Positions 41,959 to 51,690 of a stretch of DNA of 64,000 nt are shown here, in pieces. The stretch lies in NCBI RefSeq assembly GCF_002776695.1, contig NZ_LFJC01000003.1:707588-771587 (forward strand), in the 5' to 3' direction. Made by a program: the position numbers and the translations under genes. The notes below the pieces were generated by a model. That model worked only from the letters and a program-made list of their open reading frames with translations, was not told the origin of the DNA and did not search any database. Positions within the stretch are counted from its first letter, which is position 1. Each line of letters starts with the position of its first letter. Source of the stretch: Bradyrhizobium nitroreducens. GTDB taxonomy: Bacteria > Pseudomonadota > Alphaproteobacteria > Rhizobiales > Xanthobacteraceae.

Positions 41959-42939
41959 TCAGGCTTTCGGCGCCGCGCGATAGTGCGCGGCCATCGCCTG
42001 CGTCATCTTCATCATCTTGTCGCGGAGATCGGCGGGCTCCAGCACCTCGGCCTCGGGGCCGAGCCGCAACAACTCGGCCGCGGCGTGCCAGGATGTCTTG
42101 CCGACAGGCACGTGCGCGATGCGCCAGCCGTCCGCATCGGCGCTGTCCTCGATCTGTGTGCGTGCCTTGACGTAGGGCTGGCTCAGCGCGTCGAGCAGTT
42201 TGACGCCGAGCGGCGACAGCCGCACCACCGCGACGTTGGGATGCATCTCGGCCTCGAGGCGAAGCGTCGCGGCCTGCCAATAGGCGGCGAGATCGAAATC
42301 GCCGGGGCGATCGAAGCGGTCGTCGAGCGCCGTGCAGTCGAGCACGCGCGCCACGCGATAGGTGCGCACGCTGCCGTCGACCTGTCCTGCGAGATACCAG
42401 CTGCCGCCCTTCAGCACGAGGCCAAGCGGTGCGACGCGGCGCTGCTTCTCGGCGCGCCAGCTCTGGTAGCGGATCTTGATCAGTGTCCCGCGCAGGGCGG
42501 CGCCGGCAATGGCGCGCAGATGTTTTGGTTCTTCCGCCTCGCCGAACCAGCCCGGTGCATCCAAATGAAAGCGCTCCTGCATCCGTCCGGCGTCTTCGCG
42601 CAGGTGGACCGGCAGGGCCGCCATCAGCTTGTTCTGCGCGGCGATCATCGCCGCGTCGAGCCCGAGCGCCGCAGCGGGGCCCGGGAGCCCCGCGAGGAAG
42701 AGCGCGCCGGCCTCGCTTTGCGACAGTCCATTCAGCCGAACGCGGTAGCCGTCGAGCAGGCGATAGCCGCCCTCCGCGCCGCGATCGGCATAGACAGGTA
42801 CGCCGGAGGCTGCGAGCGCATCGATGTCGCGATAGATCGTGCGCACCGAGACCTCGCAGGCCTCCGCAAGCTCGGGCGCAGTGACCTGCCCCTTGGCCTG
42901 GAGGGTAGTGAGGATCGACAGCATCCGGCTCGCACGCAT
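41959..42939 (-). CDS. WYL-domain transcriptional regulator (YafY-like), module 1
   Basis: A 326-residue regulator: N-terminal DeoR-like winged helix-turn-helix (residues 1-60, 'GQVTAPELAEACEVSVRTIY' then RDIDALAASG), central WYL domain (about 140-215, 'LRGTLIKIRYQSW' and 'GLVLKGGSWYLAG') and a C-terminal extension (WCX). WYL domains bind small ligands or nucleic acid and control the helix-turn-helix. It is divergent from a GST gene, with a 27-bp inverted repeat 12 bases from its start, so it probably represses itself and the GST. The same gene arrangement occurs at 49.8-51.7 kb. Confidence 0.92.
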   Translation of the reverse strand: MRASRMLSILTTLQAKGQVTAPELAEACEVSVRTIYRDIDALAASGVPVYADRGAEGGYRLLDGYRVRLNGLSQSEAGALFLAGLPGPAAALGLDAAMIAAQNKLMAALPVHLREDAGRMQERFHLDAPGWFGEAEEPKHLRAIAGAALRGTLIKIRYQSWRAEKQRRVAPLGLVLKGGSWYLAGQVDGSVRTYRVARVLDCTALDDRFDRPGDFDLAAYWQAATLRLEAEMHPNVAVVRLSPLGVKLLDALSQPYVKARTQIEDSADADGWRIAHVPVGKTSWHAAAELLRLGPEAEVLEPADLRDKMMKMTQAMAAHYRAAPKA

Positions 42940-42951
42940 AACTCCTTAAAT

Positions 42952-42978
42952 CATACCTGACACAGGATGTCAGGTATG
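42952..42978. promoter_or_regulatory. WYL operator, module 1
   Basis: Perfect inverted repeat CATACCTGACA / TGTCAGGTATG around CAGGA in the gap between the divergent regulator and GST genes. The core 'CTGACA...GGATGT' recurs in module 2 at 50595-50618. Confidence 0.85.
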
Positions 42979-43022
42979 GGTGCGTAAAAAGGGGGCGCCA
43001 GCCAGTACCCAGGAGACCTGCC

Positions 43023-43667
43023 ATGACCGATTCGAACCGCATCACGCTGTATTACTCGCCGCAAAGCCGCGCCACCGGCACGCGGGTGCTGCTGGAGGAG
43101 CTGGGCGCGCCCTACGATCTCCACGTCCTCAACATGAAGGCCGGCGAGCAGCGTCGGCCCGCCTATCTCGCCGTCAATCCGCTCGGCAAGGTTCCGGCGA
43201 TCCGCCATGGCGAGGCGCTGGTGACCGAGCAGGTCGCGATCACCATCTATCTCGCCGATCTCTTCCCGCAGGCAGGTCTGACGCCTGCGCTGAACGATCC
43301 GCTGCGCGGTCCATATTTGCGCTGGATCGCCTATTACGGCGCCTCGTTCGAGCCGGCGCTGATCGACAAGTTCATGCAGCGCGAGCCGGCCCCGATCACG
43401 CAATCGCCCTATGCCGATTACGACACCATGCTGGGGGCGCTCGAAGCACAGCTGTCGAAGGGGCCGTACCTGCTCGGCGAACGCATGACGGCTGCTGATG
43501 TATTGTGGGGCGTCGCGTTCAAATGGACCATGATGTTCGGCATCGTGCCGAAAAAGGACGTCTTCGTCCGCTATGCCGAGCGCATGACAGCGCGTCCCGC
43601 GTTCCAGCGGATCAATGCCGCTGACGATGAGATGGCGGCGCAGCATGCCGCGGTTGCCGATGGTTGA
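43023..43667 (+). CDS. Glutathione S-transferase, WYL module 1
   Basis: A 214-residue cytoplasmic GST. The N-terminal thioredoxin-like domain has 'YYSPQSRATGTRVLLEELG', 'NPLGKVPAIRHG' with the cis-Pro and 'VTEQVAITIYLADLF'. The C-terminal helical domain contains 'LLGERMTAADVLWG', the N-capping box region. A CAGGAGA ribosome site precedes the ATG. It is divergent from the WYL regulator and faces the operator at 42952-42978. The likely task is detoxification of the compound sensed by the regulator. A tandem 23-base repeat starts at its stop codon. Confidence 0.92.
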   Translation: MTDSNRITLYYSPQSRATGTRVLLEELGAPYDLHVLNMKAGEQRRPAYLAVNPLGKVPAIRHGEALVTEQVAITIYLADLFPQAGLTPALNDPLRGPYLRWIAYYGASFEPALIDKFMQREPAPITQSPYADYDTMLGALEAQLSKGPYLLGERMTAADVLWGVAFKWTMMFGIVPKKDVFVRYAERMTARPAFQRINAADDEMAAQHAAVADG

Positions 43668-43712
43668 ATGAACCTGGATTGTAGATGACAATGAACCTGG
43701 ATTGTAGATGAC
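43667..43712 (+). repeat. Two tandem 23-base direct repeats
   Basis: The unit AATGAACCTGGATTGTAGATGAC occurs twice with no spacer (43667-43689 and 43690-43712; split here as AATGAACCTGGA + TTGTAGATGAC). The second copy supplies the start codon of the DUF6157 gene. It looks like a recent slippage duplication. Confidence 0.9.
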
Positions 43713-44142
43713 GAAGCCGATGCACACGACCAACTGCTTCAATACCTTCATCCAGGTCGCTGAAGACTGTCCCGCGCGTACTGGCGAGGAGCCGCCGCTC
43801 CGCGCGGGGAAGCCGACGGTGGCGTGCCTTCAATACGGGATGATCGCCAAGGCGCCCTACAAGCACACCTCCGACGACGTGATCTTCGCGACATCCGCGC
43901 CGGGACGCGATCTCGACGTGAAGGCGACGGAAACGGAGAAGCATGCGGCTCGCGAAGCGTTCTTTTCCCGGGGGCAGGCGTGCATGAGGGCGTCGAGCCT
44001 GGGCAAGCGCTTCGGCTGGGGCGTTCATGCTGACAGTGAGGGCCGGATCGCGATCTACGCCGTCGACAGCAAACGCTACCAGGCGCTCGTCCGCGATCCC
44101 AAGCTCACGCAGGAGCGTGCGATGCGGTCGAAGCGGGCCTGA
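43708..44142 (+). CDS. DUF6157-like protein
   Basis: A 144-residue cytoplasmic protein resembling the DUF6157 family ('MHTTNCFNTFIQVAEDCPAR', 'PYKHTSDDVIFATS', 'REAFFSRGQACMRASSLGKR' and 'FGWGVHADSEGRIAIYAVDS'). No catalytic motif is known for this family, and no signal or membrane segment is visible. The ATG at 43708 lies inside the tandem repeat; an ATG at 43720 is a fair alternative since relatives often begin at 'MHTTN'. It follows the module 1 GST by 40 bases and may be co-transcribed, so it may share its WYL control. Confidence 0.83.
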   Translation: MTKPMHTTNCFNTFIQVAEDCPARTGEEPPLRAGKPTVACLQYGMIAKAPYKHTSDDVIFATSAPGRDLDVKATETEKHAAREAFFSRGQACMRASSLGKRFGWGVHADSEGRIAIYAVDSKRYQALVRDPKLTQERAMRSKRA

Positions 44143-44928
44143 TCAGAATTTTGGCGCTCTCTTCTCCGCGAACGCCTTGATTCCTTCCTTGATCTCGTCG
44201 CCGCGCATGCTGTCGCGGTGGCGCTGGTCGGCGGCGCGATCGTCGAGCTCGCCGCGGGCGAATTCGTTGATCGCGCGCTTCATGCCGCGCATGGCCTGCG
44301 GCGCGTTGCCGGCGAGGATACCGGCGAGCTTGTCGACCTCCTCGTCGAGCGACTCTTCCGGCACCATCGCGGTGAGGTAGCCGATGCGCAGCATTTCCGG
44401 CGCGCTGATCTTCTGCGCCGTCAGGAACAGCTTCTTCGCATTGTCGACGCCGAGCCGGGTCACGTAGCGTTTGATGCCGCTCCGGTAATAATGCAGCCCG
44501 AGCCGCGCCGCCGGCATGAACATCTCGGCGGTGTCGACGCCGATGCGGAAATCGCAGGCGAGCGCGAGGTCGGTCGAGCCGCCATAGACGCCGCCGTTGA
44601 GCCGGCAGATCGTGGGCACACCGAGATCCTCAAGCCGGTTGACGACCACCTCGAAGGCCGAGCCCGCGCTCTGCTGCTCGTTCGCGCTCACCGCGCGCTC
44701 GGCCACCGAATTGAGGTCATAGCCCGCGGAGAAGGCGCGGCCGGTGCCGGTCAGCACCAGCACGCGGATGGCGGGATCGGCCTCGATCCGGTCGAACAAT
44801 TTCAGGAGCTCGCCGAGATCCTCGGCCTGCAGCCGGTTGAGATGTTTTGGCCGGTTGAGGCGGATGGTGGCGCGCGCGCCGTTGATTTCGAGCACGGGGC
44901 TGGATGCCGCGTCGGCGATATCCGACAT
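44143..44928 (-). CDS. Enoyl-CoA hydratase/isomerase family protein
   Basis: A 261-residue crotonase-fold enzyme. The oxyanion-hole segments are 'GRAFSAGYDLNSVA' and 'NGGVYGGSTDLALACDFRIG'. At the usual catalytic positions, Asp/Ser residues (GGSTDLALA) stand where hydratases have Glu, so hydratase activity is uncertain and an isomerase, hydrolase or other crotonase reaction is possible. It acts on a CoA thioester in the cytoplasm. It lies 13 bases downstream of the cyclic-nucleotide-gated channel gene on the same strand, an odd operon partner. Confidence 0.9.
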   Translation of the reverse strand: MSDIADAASSPVLEINGARATIRLNRPKHLNRLQAEDLGELLKLFDRIEADPAIRVLVLTGTGRAFSAGYDLNSVAERAVSANEQQSAGSAFEVVVNRLEDLGVPTICRLNGGVYGGSTDLALACDFRIGVDTAEMFMPAARLGLHYYRSGIKRYVTRLGVDNAKKLFLTAQKISAPEMLRIGYLTAMVPEESLDEEVDKLAGILAGNAPQAMRGMKRAINEFARGELDDRAADQRHRDSMRGDEIKEGIKAFAEKRAPKF

Positions 44929-44941
44929 TCTTGTCTCCTTC

Positions 44942-46048
44942 TTACTTGTTTTCGAGCGCGCGGCGTCTTGCTTCCGCGTCGATGGTCTCGGCGAGGTCCG
45001 GGTGCCGTGCCATCAGCACGCGAAAGTCGACGAGATCGAGCACCAGAAGCCGCGACACTTTCGTGGTCGAGACGTTGGCGCCGCGCTTGTTGTTGCCGAG
45101 CAGCGCCATCTCGCCGAAGAAGGCGCCCTCGCCGAGCTGCACCTTCTTGCCGGGCAGCTCGACCTCGACCTCGCCGGCGGCGATGAAATACATGCAATCG
45201 CCTTGCGCGCCCTTGCGGATGATCATGGTGCGCGCAGGAAGCTCCATGGTGCGCAGCATGTGGGTGACGTCGGCAATGGCGGCGGGTCCAAGCGCCGCGA
45301 AGAACGGCACCTTGCTGACGGACTCCCAGGTCTTGAGAAAATTGTCGCGCCGCGTCTCGGCGGCAAACCCGGTTGCCAGGATACCGGTCCAGAGGCCGAA
45401 CACGCCGAGGCCGGAGATCATCACCGCGGCCGCCACCATGCGCCCGAGCGGCGTGACCGGCACGGCATCGCCGTAGCCGGTGGTCGTGAGCGTGACGACG
45501 GCCCACCAGAGCGCGGCCGGCACGCTGCCGAACGTCTGGGGCTGTACGTCCCGCTCCAGGAAATATTCGGCGACGGAGGCGAGGAAGACCACGGTCAGGA
45601 AGATCACGAGCACGCTGACCAGCGGCCCCGATTCCAGCACCAGCACGCGACGAAGCTGCCGCAGTCCAGGAATGCCCGGAATCACCTTCAACACCCAGAG
45701 CACGCCGAGCAGCCAAGCCGTCCTGGGGTCGACGCCAAGGAGAAGCGCGGCCGGCACGGCCAGCGCTCCGATCGCATCGACGATGCCGGCGGAGGAGGAC
45801 ACATAGAGCGAAAGCCGTCCCTGTTGCCTCATGTGGCGTAGCCGGACCAGCCATTCGAACACGAAATAGGCGAGGCAGGTCCAGAGCAGGCTGTCGACCC
45901 AGCCGCGCGCCCCCCTGGCCCGGTTGTCCGTCAGCAGCACCATGCTGAGCACGCCCACGGTCACCGCGACGTAGGCCGCCTTGGTCATGTTGCGGCCGGC
46001 CGTGGCGGCCGTGAACTGGGCCAAAGCGGAGATCAGCGGCTTGAACAT
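44942..46048 (-). CDS. Cyclic-nucleotide-gated potassium channel (MlotiK1-like)
   Basis: A 368-residue inner-membrane channel: six hydrophobic segments (S1-S6, residues 20-230), the K+ selectivity filter TTTGYGD at 188-194, and a C-terminal cyclic-nucleotide-binding domain (about 245-360) with the phosphate-binding cassette 'FFGEMALLGNNKRGANV', including Arg322. Length and order match MlotiK1 of Mesorhizobium. The S4 segment has few Arg residues, so gating is by cAMP or cGMP rather than by voltage. It is followed by an enoyl-CoA hydratase-family gene 13 bases downstream. Confidence 0.94.
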   Translation of the reverse strand: MFKPLISALAQFTAATAGRNMTKAAYVAVTVGVLSMVLLTDNRARGARGWVDSLLWTCLAYFVFEWLVRLRHMRQQGRLSLYVSSSAGIVDAIGALAVPAALLLGVDPRTAWLLGVLWVLKVIPGIPGLRQLRRVLVLESGPLVSVLVIFLTVVFLASVAEYFLERDVQPQTFGSVPAALWWAVVTLTTTGYGDAVPVTPLGRMVAAAVMISGLGVFGLWTGILATGFAAETRRDNFLKTWESVSKVPFFAALGPAAIADVTHMLRTMELPARTMIIRKGAQGDCMYFIAAGEVEVELPGKKVQLGEGAFFGEMALLGNNKRGANVSTTKVSRLLVLDLVDFRVLMARHPDLAETIDAEARRRALENK

Positions 46049-46206
46049 GCGGGAAGGCTGTTTTGTCTCGGGGCAGGTCTCGAGGCCCCGGTTGGGACGT
46101 CGGCGCCAAAGTGCCTGTCCGGGGGGAGGCCGTCAACGACGGCAGGCGGCTTTGCCGGCGCTGCTGCGCCGGGCTGGCCGGTCTGTGCCGCCGTCGTTGG
46201 CGGTGC

Positions 46207-46425
46207 CTACCTGAAATGGGGCGGCTCGTCGTAGCCGCGGCGGCTGCTGAAGAACAGCAGCACCATCAGCCCGATGCCGACCACGACGGAAAACCCCGCG
46301 CCCAGCGCCAGCGCCACGTAGCCTTCCGTCGGGATCGGCTCACCTTGGATCGCTATTGCGGAATAAGCAAAATAGCCGGCCGCCGCCAGCATTCCCAGAA
46401 GGAGGAGGATGAGGAGTGCACGCAT
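46207..46425 (-). CDS. Small two-helix membrane protein
   Basis: A 72-residue protein with two hydrophobic helices (about residues 3-22 and 35-60) joined by a short polar loop (QGEPIPTEG), ending in a charged cytoplasmic tail (SSRRGYDEPPHFR). No family is recognised. The ATG at 46425 has CGGAGA before it. It lies 115 bases downstream of the TAXI-type binding protein gene on the same strand and might be an accessory membrane subunit, but nothing proves that. The codon use is like that of neighbouring genes. Confidence 0.75.
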   Translation of the reverse strand: MRALLILLLLGMLAAAGYFAYSAIAIQGEPIPTEGYVALALGAGFSVVVGIGLMVLLFFSSRRGYDEPPHFR

Positions 46426-46540
46426 GCTGCGGTCTCCGGTTGTAGTCGCGAACCAACGGTTGCAGAACACGCCAGTTCCCGAATGAAGCGGTGTCCTCGA
46501 CAAGGAACATCCGACAGGAACGGGGGCAAGACCCCGCGCC

Positions 46541-47986
46541 TCAGGCACTTTGGGCGGTCTTCACCACGACGACATTGCTCTCGTCGTGCTGGGCAGGGCC
46601 GCCGGCCTGCACCGTCTCCTCGGTCTCTCCGGCGTGACGTTTCAGATAGTCGCGGCGCATGCCGATCTCGTCGCGGACGAATTCGTAGCCCAGCTTGAAG
46701 GTGTCGAGCCCGTCGGTACTGATCGTGCCGTCTCTGAGGCCGATGACGGCACCGCGCAGGATGCCCTCCAGCTCGTCCTGGAGGCATTCGAGCTGATCCA
46801 GGGAGTGGGCGTGTTCGATCCGCTCGCCGATGTCGAGGATGGCGGTAGAGAGCTCGCTGGCCTTCTCGGGCGCGATGCGGGTGATCTTGGCGTAGATCGC
46901 CGCGAAGATCGAGCCGATGACACTGAGTGCGGCGGCGCCCAGATACATCAGGTCGCTGTACTTCTCCATGAACGACTTGGTGTCGTCGTTGATGTAGTCG
47001 GCCGCACCCTGGTGCGCCATCACGAAGGCGTCCTTCTCGACGGAGGCCGGCTCGATCCTTGTGGCAAAGCCGTTGTCGAGCCCGAGCGCAGGCTTGTTCT
47101 CGTAGACGACACGGGCGAGCTCGCCTGCCGTGGTCGGGGACATCCTGGATTGCGCGACCAGCAGCCATTCGAGCCCGATCGTGTCGAGGTCGTCGTCGGG
47201 GATTTGCGGCGAGGTCGATAGCGTGCCCGCCGTCAGCGTTTCGCTGGAAATGCCGGGAAGCCTGCGCGCCAGCGCCTTGGCCTCGTCGATTGCATTGAGG
47301 GTGAAGCCGCCGCGCTTGGCGAGTTGCTCATAGCCCTTGTCCCTGACGGCCTTGGAGGCATGGACGATGGCGATCACCGCGCCAAAGCCGTTCGATGCTG
47401 CGAACAGCTTGTCCAGCGTTGCGCCCTGCGGCGCCATCTGGATCTTGGCGGCCTCCGGCCCGTCGGGAATGTCGAGAATGCTGCGGACGAAGGCGAGGGA
47501 GGCTTCACTCTCGGCGACGACCGCGACCTTCTTCTTCTTCAGCTCCGCGATCGACTTGATCTTCTTGTTGCCGGGACCGAGCAGAAGCACGAGATCGTGC
47601 TCGAGGATCGCCAGCGTGCGCGCTCGCAACGGGACCTTGGCGTCGGTGCGCAGGACGGCGAGATCGGCCTGCTTGCGGTCGAACTGCGCGAGCGCCTTGG
47701 CGCCGTCTGCGTTGTTGACGATCTTGATCCGGAAGCGCGAGGCGTTGGCGTTGAGCACGGCGGCGAGCTTGGCCGCGAACAACGCCTCCTCGCTGTTGGG
47801 AGCGCCGGCGGCAAAGGTCAGCGTCTCCGAATTGTGCAGCAAGGCGCGACCACCCCAGACGGTGGCGAGCGACAACAGCAGGGTCAGCACGACGTAGAGG
47901 AAGACCTGCTGTTGATTGGTCTTGATCACCTTGGGTCGCCGGGGCGGCGGCTCGGTCAGCGACGAAATGGGGCCTTCAGCACTCAT
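46541..47986 (-). CDS. TAXI-family TRAP-type solute-binding protein, membrane-anchored
   Basis: A 481-residue protein with an N-terminal membrane anchor (about residues 27-47), a periplasmic binding domain of the TAXI type (about 55-330, 'GAPNSEEALFAAKLAAVL', 'KKVAVVAESEAS'), a second membrane helix (about 348-368) and a C-terminal cytoplasmic domain of about 110 residues with a coiled-coil-like Glu-rich region. TAXI proteins normally feed a fused DctQM permease. No such permease is near, and the extra C-terminal part is not typical of a simple binding protein, so it may act as a sensor rather than in uptake. Confidence 0.83.
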   Translation of the reverse strand: MSAEGPISSLTEPPPRRPKVIKTNQQQVFLYVVLTLLLSLATVWGGRALLHNSETLTFAAGAPNSEEALFAAKLAAVLNANASRFRIKIVNNADGAKALAQFDRKQADLAVLRTDAKVPLRARTLAILEHDLVLLLGPGNKKIKSIAELKKKKVAVVAESEASLAFVRSILDIPDGPEAAKIQMAPQGATLDKLFAASNGFGAVIAIVHASKAVRDKGYEQLAKRGGFTLNAIDEAKALARRLPGISSETLTAGTLSTSPQIPDDDLDTIGLEWLLVAQSRMSPTTAGELARVVYENKPALGLDNGFATRIEPASVEKDAFVMAHQGAADYINDDTKSFMEKYSDLMYLGAAALSVIGSIFAAIYAKITRIAPEKASELSTAILDIGERIEHAHSLDQLECLQDELEGILRGAVIGLRDGTISTDGLDTFKLGYEFVRDEIGMRRDYLKRHAGETEETVQAGGPAQHDESNVVVVKTAQSA

Positions 47987-48363
47987 GGCAGCACTCTGGC
48001 CTTATTCTTTCGGTGGCGGGTGGCTCGCGAATGTGATCGCGGCGAGCGCCCTCTAATTCGTAAGCGTCTGAAAAAAGAACGATATTCTCTGTCTTCAATG
48101 ATAGCGCGAAGGTCGCGGAATGCAAATTTCGAGCCGACGGTAACCTTACGCGATGTGTCCGCGGCGATTGGTCATCCTATCACCAGTTAGCCACACTTGG
48201 CGATTTTCCGGTTCCCCCGGCTGCATTCCTCCGCGGGAGATGTCATAAATCGCGCGTCCCGGCGATTTGACCGGTCCAGAACTGGTCCAAGAAGAAGTTG
48301 CGCTGAACGGCTCCCATTTTTCTTGTCACGTCAATGAGGGCGTCAGCCTTGTCGTTTCCACCC
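47987..48363. other. Gene-free 377-base stretch
   Basis: Divergent promoter space between the TAXI-type gene (minus) and the DUF3307 gene (plus). Lower GC near 48050-48130. I see no RNA gene, palindrome or clear promoter pair. Confidence 0.4.
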
Positions 48364-48750
48364 ATGTCATCGGCGGTTCCGGTCGAAGCGCTCATTGGCT
48401 GGATGTTGCTGCTCACCTTCAAGCACATCATCGCCGATTTCGTCCTCCAGACCGCCTGGATGGCGCATGGCAAGGACCAAAAGCACGGCTGGGCCCTGCC
48501 GCTTCTGGTGCACTGCCTGGTTCACCTTGCAGTTGCACTGCCGCTGATACTGATCGTGGCGCCGAAATTCTGGTTCGTGGCGCTGATCGACTTCGTGATC
48601 CACATCACGATCGACCGCGCCAAGGGGTTCGTTTCGGCCAATTTCGGTGTTGACCTCCAGCATCCCTGGTTCTGGACCCTGATCGGCGTCGACCAGGCCC
48701 TGCACCACCTCACCGGCTTCGGCCTCTCCATCTTCATGGCGGCGAACTGA
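48364..48750 (+). CDS. DUF3307 membrane protein
   Basis: A 128-residue inner-membrane protein with three or four hydrophobic helices. It matches DUF3307: 'LIGWMLLLTFKHIIADFVLQ' at the start, a HxxxD pair (KHIIADF, HITIDRAKG) and 'WTLIGVDQALHHLTGFGLSI' at the end. The conserved His/Asp in membrane helices suggest a hydrolase or transport role, but none is established. The start is uncertain: ATG at 48334 and 48364 both lack a good ribosome site. The second is chosen since the domain begins there. Confidence 0.8.
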   Translation: MSSAVPVEALIGWMLLLTFKHIIADFVLQTAWMAHGKDQKHGWALPLLVHCLVHLAVALPLILIVAPKFWFVALIDFVIHITIDRAKGFVSANFGVDLQHPWFWTLIGVDQALHHLTGFGLSIFMAAN

Positions 48751-48845
48751 GTTAGTGGCCATCTGGAGAAGCCGCCGGCCGGCATGGTTCGACGGCGCTT
48801 CGCGCCTCCTCACCATGAGGGGTTGGAGTCTTGCAGCAGAAGCAG

Positions 48846-48892
48846 ACCTCATCCTGAGGAGCCCGCCAAAGGCGGGCGTCTCGAAGGATGGC
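48846..48892. repeat. Palindromic repeat (CATCCTGAGGAGC family), copy 2
   Basis: CTCATCCTGAGGAGCCCGCC - GGCGGGC - GTCTCGAAGGATGG, a single unit of the type seen doubled at 7433-7580. Confidence 0.75.
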
Positions 48893-49024
48893 CACAGGTG
48901 AGCCGTCCGCCGGCTCCCTGATTCGCGGCCAGGGCGCAACCACCCCGGGTGACTACCGCCCAGGGTGGTTAACCTTTCGTTAGAGAATTGCACTGCATCT
49001 TCCCCGAGACGAGGGAGAACTGCA

Positions 49025-49423
49025 ATGTTTTCAAGCCGCGATACCTTTGAAAGCGATTTCTGCCCGGTCCGCGACGAGCTCCTTGGCGAGATGTATCGCG
49101 CCAGCGAGAGTGGCCTGCCGAGGCTGGTTGAGAGTGTTTCCCCCGACGCGCGCGCCAGGCTGGCGCTGTTCTGCTATCGCCGCAGCCATCTGCACTCGCT
49201 GGCGGTCGCGATCGCAGGCAGCTGCAACGAGCGCGACCTGATCGAGAACGGCGGGCGCGTCGGCTCGACGCTTTACGCGCTGTCGCGCGAGAGCACGGCG
49301 AAATCCTCGCCGTCGCTGTCGGGCGGGCGCAAGCCGATCACGCTGTCGACCAAGCCGCTTTCGGTGCTCGCGCCGCTGGACGACGAGATCGACGACGAGA
49401 TCAGCGAAGCGGTTCCGGCTTAA
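49025..49423 (+). CDS. Hypothetical protein
   Basis: A 132-residue soluble protein without recognised family. The middle is predicted helical ('LLGEMYRASESGLPRLVESV', 'SPDARARLALFCYRRSHLHS'), followed by a Ser-rich linker and a very acidic tail (LDDEIDDEISEAVPA). No signal peptide or membrane segment. A strong GAGGGAGAAC sequence precedes the ATG, which supports this start and real translation. Its neighbours give no clue; it is monocistronic with palindromic repeats on either side. Confidence 0.78.
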   Translation: MFSSRDTFESDFCPVRDELLGEMYRASESGLPRLVESVSPDARARLALFCYRRSHLHSLAVAIAGSCNERDLIENGGRVGSTLYALSRESTAKSSPSLSGGRKPITLSTKPLSVLAPLDDEIDDEISEAVPA

Positions 49424-49439
49424 GCGGCTCCTTGTTGGC

Positions 49440-49530
49440 GTATGATCTCCGCGCAAACGCTTTGCGTTTGTCTCGCGGAAAACCGCTGCACACTTTGCGC
49501 TAACGCGGCCCTCCGGGTCCGGATCATGCG
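49440..49530. repeat. Palindromic repeat (GATCCGGA family), copy 3
   Basis: Reads GTATGATCTCCGCGC, then AAACGC / GCGTTT, CGCGGAAAACCGC and GGTCCGGATCATGC. It is a longer relative of 11076-11123 and 16483-16530 and lies between the ends of two convergent genes. Confidence 0.65.
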
Positions 49531-49847
49531 CTAACGATCACGGGCAACCCGAACTTCCGCCGCGCCATCGCGCATTCGGCATCGCCCGGCATGCAGGTGC
49601 GGCACACCTCCGGCCTCACGGCATAGATGCCGCAGGCGGTCGCTTTCCCGATTTCCCCCTGCAAGGCCGAGCAGCGATCGCCCTCGCACCGCATGCCGGA
49701 TTGACGCGCGTTGACGAGCGCCTCCGGAATGGCTGCAAGCTCTTCGTCGCTCTCGACCGAGAAGCGCGGCCAGTTGGCCGAATAGCCACAGCACGCGCCG
49801 CAACTCTGGCAATAGCTCGACGGATCGGTGGGGAAATCTTGCTGCAT
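49524..49847 (-). CDS. YkgJ-family cysteine-cluster protein
   Basis: A 107-residue protein of the YkgJ/Fe-S cluster-binding family. Its Cys residues come in the family order CQSCGACC...CEGDRCSAL...CGIYAVRPEVCRTCMPGDAEC, and probably bind zinc or an iron-sulfur cluster. It is cytoplasmic. A GTG at 49856 is in frame, overlaps the upstream WYL gene stop by four bases and has AAGGA before it, so that may be the true start; the ATG at 49847 is the conservative choice. Either way it is translationally coupled to the module 2 regulator. Confidence 0.85.
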   Translation of the reverse strand: MQQDFPTDPSSYCQSCGACCGYSANWPRFSVESDEELAAIPEALVNARQSGMRCEGDRCSALQGEIGKATACGIYAVRPEVCRTCMPGDAECAMARRKFGLPVIVSA

Positions 49848-49852
49848 ACTCG

Positions 49853-50551
49853 TCACGTGTCCTTTGGCGGGCCCCAGACCAGGCTCTGCCGCCATCTTGC
49901 GCGCAGCACGTCGCGACGCTCCGGATATTTCTCGTCGAGATAGTTCGCGTCCACCACGCGGTCGGTGCGGAAGCTGCGGAAGTCGCCGCGCAGTTCGCAC
50001 CAGGCCGCGAGCAGCCGCACGGCTTCGAGATAGCCGACCGAAATCGGCCAGATCATGCGCTCGCTGGCGCGTCCCTGCTCGTCGCGATAGCGCAGCATGA
50101 TCTTCTTGCCCTCGTGGATCTGCGTGCGGGTGCGCACCATGTCGAGACGGTCCGGCTCCCTGTTCCAGCTTGGCCGGGCGCGGCTCGCCGGCTCCAGCAC
50201 GAAGGGGCGCAGGCGCTCAGGCACAGTGTCGGCAATCTTGGCCATCAAGTCTTCGGCCGCGCGCGCCAGCGCGGAATCGGCGTGGCCCGCGACCCACTGT
50301 GCGCCCAGCACTGCGGCCTCGATCTCGTCGGGTGTCAGCATCAGGGGCGGCAGGTCAAAGCCCTTTTCCAGGATGTAGCCCATGCCGGCTTCGCCGCGGA
50401 TCGGCACGCGCTGGCCGATCAGCGTGGCGATGTCGCGATAGATCGTGCGCTTCGAGGTCTCGAGCTCGGCCGCGATGGCATCCGCCGTCAGCGGCTTACG
50501 CGTGCGTCTCAGCACCTGGATGATCTGAAACAGCCGGTCGGCGCGTCTCAT
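49853..50551 (-). CDS. WYL-domain transcriptional regulator (YafY-like), module 2
   Basis: A 232-residue regulator: N-terminal winged helix-turn-helix ('RRADRLFQIIQVLRRTRKPL', 'TADAIAAELETSKRTIYRD') and a WYL domain ('EGKKIMLRYRDEQGRASERM' then 'IWPISVGYLEAVRLLAAWC'). It lacks the C-terminal extension of the module 1 regulator, so it is about 90 residues shorter. It is divergent from a small gene and a GST. The intervening region has an inverted repeat (50595-50618) sharing 'CTGACA-GGATGT' with module 1. Likely self-repression plus control of the GST in response to a toxic small molecule. A YkgJ-like gene overlaps its end. Confidence 0.92.
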   Translation of the reverse strand: MRRADRLFQIIQVLRRTRKPLTADAIAAELETSKRTIYRDIATLIGQRVPIRGEAGMGYILEKGFDLPPLMLTPDEIEAAVLGAQWVAGHADSALARAAEDLMAKIADTVPERLRPFVLEPASRARPSWNREPDRLDMVRTRTQIHEGKKIMLRYRDEQGRASERMIWPISVGYLEAVRLLAAWCELRGDFRSFRTDRVVDANYLDEKYPERRDVLRARWRQSLVWGPPKDT

Positions 50552-50594
50552 GACAATTCTCTTATCGGTGATCTTTTCAGAAAGCGGCGCGCGG

Positions 50595-50618
50595 CTGCTG
50601 ACAGGATGTTGGCAGCAG
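50595..50618. promoter_or_regulatory. WYL operator, module 2
   Basis: Inverted repeat CTGCTGACA / TGGCAGCAG (eight of nine pairs) around GGATGT, 44 bases from the regulator start. The core resembles 42952-42978. Confidence 0.75.
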
Positions 50619-50664
50619 GGGAGTTCTATACCGGGACAACACAGCGACTGAAGAGGATTTGTCC

Positions 50665-50925
50665 ATGATCATTCCAACCCATTTCGGCCCGGTCATTCCG
50701 ATGCTGCGGGCCCAGGCATGGTCCGTGGCGGTATTCGGCCGCCTCGTTTCGCTCGATCTCATGGCCGTCGACCTCCGGTTTGCCCTCGCCGGCGCAGTGA
50801 CAGGCTCGCTGGTTCGGGCCGCCGACGCGCTGGTCCGCCACGTGATGTGCCGCGCCTGGCGAGGGGCTCGCTTCGCAGAAGATATCACGACTGCTGCCAC
50901 CATGGTGGCAGCAGCCGGCCACTAG
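50665..50925 (+). CDS. Small hypothetical protein, WYL module 2
   Basis: An 86-residue protein with no recognised family. It has high-GC third codon positions, like true genes here, and a GAAGAGGA ribosome site before the ATG at 50665. It is rich in Ala/Val/Arg, with a moderately hydrophobic stretch (about residues 24-55) that may be a peripheral helix; no clear signal peptide. It lies between the WYL operator and the GST gene, 36 bases from the latter, and is probably co-transcribed with it. No function can be given. Confidence 0.65.
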   Translation: MIIPTHFGPVIPMLRAQAWSVAVFGRLVSLDLMAVDLRFALAGAVTGSLVRAADALVRHVMCRAWRGARFAEDITTAATMVAAAGH

Positions 50926-50961
50926 GTTCCCCAAACTTTCGAGAGGTCCAGGAGAGATCGC

Positions 50962-51690
50962 ATGATCACACTTTACGGCTTCGGCACCGGCTTCGGCCTG
51001 CCTGAAATCAGCCCCTTCGTCACCAAGACCGAGGTGCAGCTCAAGATGGCGGGACTGCCCTACCGGAAGGAGCGGGCGATGCCGCCGGCCTCGCCCAAGG
51101 GGCAGCTGCCGTTCATCGACGACGGTGGCGAGGCGGTGGCCGATTCCACCTTCATCCGCGCCCATATCGAACGTCGCTACGGCTTTGATTTCGACGCCGG
51201 TCTTTCACTGGCCGAGCGGGCGCAGGCCTGGGCGTTCGAACGGATGATCGAGCATCACGTCTATTGGGGGCTGGTCGGCGCCCGCTGGGTCGATCCGGTC
51301 AATTTCGCCAAGGGCCCTGCGCATTTCTTCGACGGCGCGCCGGAGCACAATCGCGAGAAGCTGCGCGAGGATGCGCAATTCCGCGTCGCCGAGAACTATC
51401 TGCTCTCGGGGCTCGGCCGCCATGGGCCCGACGACGATGTCGACCTTGCCGTGCGCTCGCTGTTCGCGCTGTCGGTGCAGCTCGGCGACAAGTCCTTCCT
51501 GATGGGCAACAAGCCCTGCGGCGTCGACGCCACCGCCTTCGGCATGCTCGCCGGCATCCTCACGCCGTTCTTCGAATCGGCCCTGCGCGAGCGCGCCGAG
51601 GGGTTTCCGAATCTCACCGCCTATGTCGATCGCATGATGGATGGCTATTATCCCGAGTTCGCGTGGACGCCGCTGCGGCAGGCGGCGTGA
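50962..51690 (+). CDS. Glutathione S-transferase, WYL module 2
   Basis: A 242-residue GST-like protein. Its N-terminal domain is of the metaxin/Tom37-like bacterial group ('ISPFVTKTEVQLKMAGLPYR', 'KGQLPFIDDGGEAVADSTFI') and its helical C-terminal domain contains 'LGDKSFLMGNKPCGVDATAF'. The first residues 'YGFGTGFGLPEISPF' replace the usual active-site Ser/Tyr context, so it may not conjugate glutathione in the normal way. AGGAGAG precedes the ATG. It is the second gene under the module 2 operator. Probable role: protection against an electrophile sensed by the WYL regulator. Confidence 0.9.
   Translation: MITLYGFGTGFGLPEISPFVTKTEVQLKMAGLPYRKERAMPPASPKGQLPFIDDGGEAVADSTFIRAHIERRYGFDFDAGLSLAERAQAWAFERMIEHHVYWGLVGARWVDPVNFAKGPAHFFDGAPEHNREKLREDAQFRVAENYLLSGLGRHGPDDDVDLAVRSLFALSVQLGDKSFLMGNKPCGVDATAFGMLAGILTPFFESALRERAEGFPNLTAYVDRMMDGYYPEFAWTPLRQAA

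Follow-up and report, generated by a model that had tools for sequence, protein, structure and literature searches.

A 64,000-nucleotide stretch of the Bradyrhizobium nitroreducens genome (contig NZ_LFJC01000003.1, positions 707,588 to 771,587 of the forward strand; hereafter the window) contains two modules in which a WYL regulator gene on the minus strand and a glutathione S-transferase (GST) gene on the plus strand diverge from an intergenic palindrome (Table 1). A reading made from the letters alone (the sequence-only reading) had described both pairs, and we found by Pfam searches and palindrome analysis that they are real and that they are conserved in relatives. It was also right that the accompanying genes differ, with a DUF6157 gene at module 1 and an 86-residue open reading frame (ORF) and a YkgJ-like CxxCxxCC gene at module 2. 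Its two palindromes, op1 and op2a, were borne out; its inventory was incomplete in that it missed a further operator, op2b. In the host genome (8.2 Mb), Pfam WYL matches at E 0.001 fell in two places, corresponding to WYL1 and WYL2. The operators of both modules have the common core TGACA-N5/6-TGKCA.

Table 1. Features of the two WYL-GST modules (positions are those of the window; aa, amino acids; nt, nucleotides)
Feature	Position	Strand	Description
WYL1	41959..42939	-	HTH_11-WYL-WCX regulator, 326 aa; DriD-like architecture (Pfam, homologues, joint WYL1+WYL2 profile)
op1	42952..42978	.	CATACCTGACA-N5-TGTCAGGTATG; core GAC(N7)GTC
Putative GST1 -10	42985..42990	+	TAAAAA; TA 12 nt past TGTCA
GST1	43023..43667	+	Glutathione S-transferase; Pfam GST_N/GST_C
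DUF6157 gene	43708..44142	+	Passenger in 4/14 WYL1 loci (1.5-kb flanks looked at)
YkgJ-like gene	49524..49847	-	CxxCxxCC protein (Pfam); start 5 nt past WYL2 stop codon
WYL2	49853..50551	-	Short YafY-type WYL regulator, 232 aa; HTH_11 + WYL, without WCX
op2a	50595..50618	.	CTGCTGACA-N6-TGGCAGCAG
Putative -10 after op2a	50627..50632	+	TATACC; TA 12 nt past TGGCA
86-aa ORF	50665..50925	+	Between op2a and op2b
op2b	50891..50914	.	Perfect palindrome CTGCTGCCACCATGGTGGCAGCAG; second WYL2-type operator, directly before GST2
Putative GST2 -10	50923..50928	+	TAGGTT
GST2	50962..51690	+	Pfam GST_N_4/GST_C_6

WYL1 looks like a local switch. The protein scored 57.1 bits for HTH_11 (cut-off 25) and 58.4 bits for WYL (cut-off 21.8), and op1 is a perfect palindrome with 11-nt arms and a 5-nt spacer inside the 83-bp gap between WYL1 and GST1. 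WYL1 was present at E 1e-20 in 14 of 149 family genomes, and we compared the 14 full-length loci. GST1 was divergent from WYL1 in 13 of them, the exception (L042) facing a Cupin_2 gene by Pfam, and the strict form TGACA-N5-TGTCA was kept in 12, with altered forms in L042 and L043. There was no second copy of the op1 core genome-wide at up to two mismatches, and it is this single occurrence that makes WYL1 look local.

The GST2 side of module 2 carries two operators, and this layout is conserved in Bradyrhizobium. WYL2 scored 59.2 bits for HTH_11 and 35.1 bits for WYL (same cut-offs). The arms of op2a are 9 nt long with one mismatch, around a 6-nt spacer, and op2b overlaps the 3' end of the 86-aa ORF, whose stop codon (TAG) forms part of the putative GST2 -10. 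WYL2 gave 65 matches in 56 of the 149 family genomes, and we compared the best 30 loci. GST2 was divergent from WYL2 in 23 of these, and TGMCA-N6-TGKCA was present in 29 (missing in L032). Together with the counts for GST1, these numbers show that neighbors and operators are conserved at both modules, one of the points on which the sequence-only reading had proposed to be checked. Two operators were found in genus loci L003-L009 and in L010-L014 and L016, and a single operator directly before GST2 in L015, L017-L021 and L023. A second sample comprised 80 named WYL2 loci of 527 confirmed (79 labelled Bradyrhizobium and one Hyphomicrobiales bacterium; 87-100% identity), and all 80 had both an op2a-type and an op2b-type operator. 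In the same sample, 73 loci have an ATG 67 nt past the point where the op2a core starts, the ORF is between 39 and 108 aa long, and the reading frame ends within or just beyond op2b. The 86-aa ORF had no match in Pfam or NCBIfam. The small ORF between the operators may encode a small, rapidly evolving protein or serve as a leader.

The operators are at a fixed distance from a putative -10 element. Counting from the end of TGKCA to TA, we found TA at offset 12 in all 160 module-2 sites of the 80 named loci, in 12/14 WYL1 loci, in 35/42 WYL2 family sites, and in 18 of the 22 operator-bearing loci at the class or phylum level. If this TA is taken as positions -12/-11, then the spacer of the palindrome sits on the -35 hexamer. 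By inspection, the hexamer at that position has a near-zero match to the consensus (TTGACG/A), so the promoters look activator-dependent.

Sites of the op2 type are dispersed in the genome and recur at the same genes. In the host genome they precede a GFA-family gene (L050), a third GST gene (GST3; L051), a hotdog thioesterase gene after mutY (L052), and uvrB (L053). In a pattern search allowing up to three mismatches, there were 8 rows in the forward and 9 in the reverse direction, compared to 1 and 0 for the reversed control. With the promoter register built in and at most one mismatch, the sites recovered were solely op2a, op2b, and those of the GFA, thioesterase and GST3 genes (8 rows, three sites being found in both orientations; 3 rows for the reversed control). 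The pattern CTGMCANNANGNTGKCAG had matches in all 40 genus genomes, host included, with 300 strand-matches in total; the reversed pattern had 9. A near-palindromic site enters these totals once for each strand. We then surveyed 58 regions from 18 other genus genomes, taking non-module sites among the matches listed, and could assign 50. Most lay before the thioesterase (17), uvrB (11) and GFA (10) genes, and others before genes for an EamA permease (3), a DUF1127-like small protein (3), GST3 (2), a glyoxalase (1) and an SDR (1); one was at a WYL2-like paralogue, and one (L131) proved to be a WYL2-GST2 module. GFA and thioesterase sites were also present in two other genera (L173, L174).

The promoter register was kept at the dispersed sites. 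Of the 49 dispersed sites not at uvrB, 45 had TA at offset 12, including those at GFA (14/14), thioesterase (22/22), EamA (3/3), DUF1127-like (4/4) and SDR (1/1) genes; the mean for the other offsets was 0.5. The 49 sites omit the eight without a recognised target as well as L087, L131 and L174 (TA at 12), L175 and L182 (no TA), and L183 and L184 (no core). Three kinds of site have features of their own. The thioesterase site in the host genome (L052 1501-1524) lies between mutY and the thioesterase gene and overlaps the 3' end of mutY. The DUF1127-like protein scored 20.9 bits (Pfam cut-off 23.3), and its op2-type site has the same -10 register at L121, L127, L139 and L179. The WYL2-like paralogue (46% identity; L087 773-1507, minus strand), from another Bradyrhizobium (G150), has its own TGACA-N6-TGTCA operator upstream in the same register, pointing at an MFS-transporter-like gene (named by eye).

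The presence of the motif tracked the presence of WYL2. With one mismatch allowed, 27 of the 28 family genomes whose WYL2 reached 58% identity had the motif, compared to 4 of the remaining 121 (Fisher p 2e-24). Of these four exceptions, one site adjoins a 46% WYL2 homologue (G021) and three have no recognised target (G019, G031, G146).

Genes that have dispersed sites in Bradyrhizobium are next to WYL2 in other bacteria. In family relatives lacking GST2, WYL2 faced a GFA gene (L026-L028) or a glyoxalase gene (L029-L030), as identified by Pfam for L026 and L029 and by likeness for the rest. These neighbors indicate that the trans targets in Bradyrhizobium are cis neighbors elsewhere. WYL2 homologues were found at E 1e-30 in 65 of 289 genomes of a class sample, and in the 29 best loci outside the family the divergent gene was a GST in 14 and a glyoxalase in 2; GST matches on the regulator's strand (L274, L276) were excluded from this count. 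The operator was found in 19 of these loci. Pfam searches with nine class-level neighbors identified an epimerase-type protein in L275 and a polyketide-cyclase-type protein in L278, and confirmed the namings in L268, L277, L282, L283 and L295. WYL1 relatives (E 1e-40) were found in 10 of 299 genomes of a phylum sample.

The promoter geometry resembles that of DriD, a WYL activator of Caulobacter crescentus (PDB 8TP8, 9PFV, 9PGA, 9PFQ). The DriD site, ATACGAC(N7)GTCGTAT, overlaps -35 at a fixed distance from -10 in promoters with poor -35 matches (PMC12340889). The core of op1 has the same spacing, and the -35 overlap, the constant -10 distance and the poor -35 are all found here. An A is located 15 nt past GNC in the printed didA, driD and bapE promoters (PMC12340889) and in all three window sites; our -10 assignment may be one base off that of the DriD paper. 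WYL2 differs from DriD in being shorter (no WCX) and in having N8 between GAC and GKC, with the fixed register kept. The targets also differ: didA, bapE, recJ and dnaG for DriD, and GST, GFA and thioesterase genes here. A joint WYL1+WYL2 profile identified DriD as a homologous helix-turn-helix-WYL protein, and its nearest solved relatives were PafBC, PafC and DriD. WYL1 matched solved DriD chains weakly, at E about 5e-5 (7TZV/7U02; 7TZV is a DriD complex, PMC12340889), so WYL1 is not established as a DriD orthologue. With WYL2 alone, none of the DriD chains was matched at E 1 or below.

Two actinobacterial systems are also similar. PafBC of mycobacteria ranks closest among the solved relatives of the joint profile (6SJ9, E 3.6e-20; 7P5X, E 9.6e-17) and uses a -26 promoter motif; it differs in being a heterodimer that acts by sigma adaptation on more than 150 genes. 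Arginines R165, R188 and R192 of WYL2 are invariant in 15 orthologues and align with R181, R204 and R208 of PafB, which are needed to bind single-stranded DNA (ssDNA) (PMC11804915). SiwR of Mycobacterium smegmatis is a WYL activator adjoining DinB superfamily/thiol S-transferase genes; in some species a neighbor is glyoxalase-like (pfam18029). The genes are separated by about 60 bp, a palindrome lies between -35 and -10, and the -26 region is needed (PMC10693628). SiwR is actinobacterial and, in the available part of that paper, its described target is one adjacent operon, a dispersed regulon not being described.

Based on these results, we favor, at somewhat better than even confidence, the view that WYL1 and WYL2 are DriD-like WYL transcription activators, one local and one expanded to a glutathione-detoxification regulon. 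We infer that a homodimer binds TGACA-N5/6-TGKCA with its half-sites straddling the weak -35 position and that the bound dimer would recruit RNA polymerase to a -10 that starts 12 nt further. WYL1 would switch GST1 locally. WYL2 would originally have been a local switch of a single glutathione- or glyoxalase-type gene and, in Bradyrhizobium, would have grown to be the master of a dispersed regulon comprising GST2 with the 86-aa ORF, the third GST, the GFA-family gene, the hotdog thioesterase gene and probably uvrB. Because of the PafB-like arginines in WYL2 and the precedent of SiwR, we think that activation is likely, and we believe less firmly, a little short of even confidence, that the ligand of WYL2 is nucleic acid, presumably ssDNA from damage that would be read via the WYL arginines. 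The regulon would then be a LexA-independent response to DNA-reactive electrophiles. The fuller proposal, that an ssDNA-sensing, LexA-independent WYL2 regulon couples glutathione detoxification to uvrB repair and arose as a local operator spread to genes that neighbor WYL2 in other genera, is one that we put forward tentatively and consider possible rather than probable. If it is true, a single switch would both destroy DNA-reactive electrophiles, with two GSTs, the GFA and thioesterase gene products and, in some species, a glyoxalase, and repair the adducts.

Several results weigh against this interpretation. Eight of the 58 genus regions show no recognised target (L085, L112, L113, L116, L128, L129, L133 and L138); we do not claim these as targets, and TA is at offset 12 in two of them (L128 and L133, in one orientation each). 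The co-occurrence count takes in the regulator's own cis operator, dispersed sites are few outside the genus, and no operator was found in 10 of the 29 class-level WYL2 loci. The register is found in 1/4 GST3 sites and 0/1 glyoxalase sites: the three full GST3 sites have GACAAT or GACACT where TA would stand, and the sole TA-bearing site labelled GST3 (L178) matches GST3 over 22 residues only. WYL2 lacks WCX and, by inspection, the Trp-Tyr-Leu motif, which makes ssDNA sensing uncertain. The uvrB sites are without the register (0/13), their spacer points the opposite way, and only the site itself is invariant there. One 24-mer is common to 12 of the 13 uvrB sites amid variable flanks, making the site a conserved island. 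We therefore hold uvrB to be a probable, not proven, target of WYL2. The uvrB frame (L053 3-1440, minus strand) has 193 residues preceding the part that matches UvrB models, which leaves it uncertain where uvrB truly starts and how far this is from the operator.

The similarity of the two modules is not well explained by copying. The sequence-only reading proposed a re-used sensing/detoxification cassette, in which one cassette was copied and yielded related operators at two sites. The dispersed sites make a sensing/detoxification role more credible, but the copying of one cassette does not account best for the data, and we consider it improbable. In its favor, the layout, the TGACA/TGKCA half-sites and the -10 register are the same in both modules. 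The pairs are also not unlinked, as had been stated: they are about 7 kb apart here, and in six of six sampled genus genomes holding both the separation stays within about 5-10 kb. However, the regulators are 27% identical with different domain architectures, and the GSTs belong to different Pfam families with no significant BLASTP similarity (E 0.12), so that the earlier remark that they are not close paralogues stands. We reject plain duplication of a cassette on these grounds. Furthermore, the spacers differ (N5 versus N6), op1 has a single copy genome-wide and op2-type sites recur, and relatives of WYL1 and WYL2 occur apart in other genera with other neighbors. The element 'CTGACA...GGATGT', which had been proposed as common to the two sites, did not hold up. 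In the window, CTGACA occurs about as often as chance predicts (22 copies versus 22.7 expected), and CTGACA-N2..20-GGATGT occurs only at op1 (0.08 expected), missing op2a because both strings abut there. The register of GGATGT differs between the sites: it runs into a half-site in op1 and makes up the spacer of op2a, a stretch that is variable in relatives (GCATGT or CCATGG, for example). The half-site goes with the regulator family whatever the neighbor, be it GST, GFA, glyoxalase or another gene, and WYL1 and WYL2 have in common the recognition-helix sequence S-x-RTIYRDI, which would explain the likeness of the operators more simply. We also considered whether the dispersed palindromes might be repeat elements or terminators without a regulatory role. 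The palindromes are strong, up to 28 bp, and the uvrB site in the host genome is directly past the stop of the upstream reading frame (by inspection). Against this, the sites recur, at a single distance from a -10, ahead of the same orthologues, they track WYL2, with none in 117 of 121 relatives lacking a close WYL2, and there was no T-run after the sites that we inspected. We give this explanation hardly any weight.

Repression is the more serious alternative, and we consider it rather unlikely. The WYL proteins would be repressors, with a dimer over -35 that an effector (electrophile, glutathione conjugate or nucleic acid) would release. A palindrome spanning -35 would block polymerase, and the distance from the operator to the start of the regulator gene (12 nt for WYL1, 43 nt for WYL2) would suit autorepression. 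There is also a precedent that weighs against activation: among the WYL proteins BrxR and CapW, BrxR represses from an 11-bp inverted repeat with a 5-bp spacer, the geometry of op1 (PMC9122601). It does so beside phage-defence systems, however, and none such was seen in the modules here. Genotoxic-stress WYL regulators have so far been activators and phage-defence ones repressors (PMC10693628). In addition, an exact distance to -10 across several different promoters is not required of a repressor site, and the poor -35 hexamers make the promoters look activator-dependent. For these reasons, we prefer activation by DriD-like WYL proteins.

Other features of module 2 were noted. Among the 23 WYL2-GST2 loci, 20 have the YkgJ-like gene downstream of WYL2. 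Convergent with this gene is a 152-aa ORF (48965-49423, plus strand) that has a homologue in 19 of the 23 and had no match in Pfam or NCBIfam. For GST2, the nearest NCBIfam model, the isoprene-epoxide GST IsoI (NF049950), scored 157 bits, below its cut-off of 300. An AlphaFold model of WYL2 built with 24 close sequences had a mean pLDDT of 44 and was set aside.

The system is of a known kind, WYL activators, and is larger than was seen from the sequence-only reading. We did not find this variant in the open literature: searches of open PMC papers returned none on WYL or YafY proteins with GST regulation or on WYL proteins in Bradyrhizobium, and only SiwR for WYL, glyoxalase and regulon together. 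The WYL family is very large in bacteria and few of its members have been studied. For a WYL branch that is common in Alphaproteobacteria, the modules provide an operator, a promoter register and a list of targets that can be tested, and they predict that the DriD promoter geometry is valid beyond DNA repair. WYL2 would be a case of a local switch becoming a dispersed regulon and, if the link to uvrB is true, detoxification and DNA repair would be joined under a non-LexA switch in a nitrogen-fixing soil genus.

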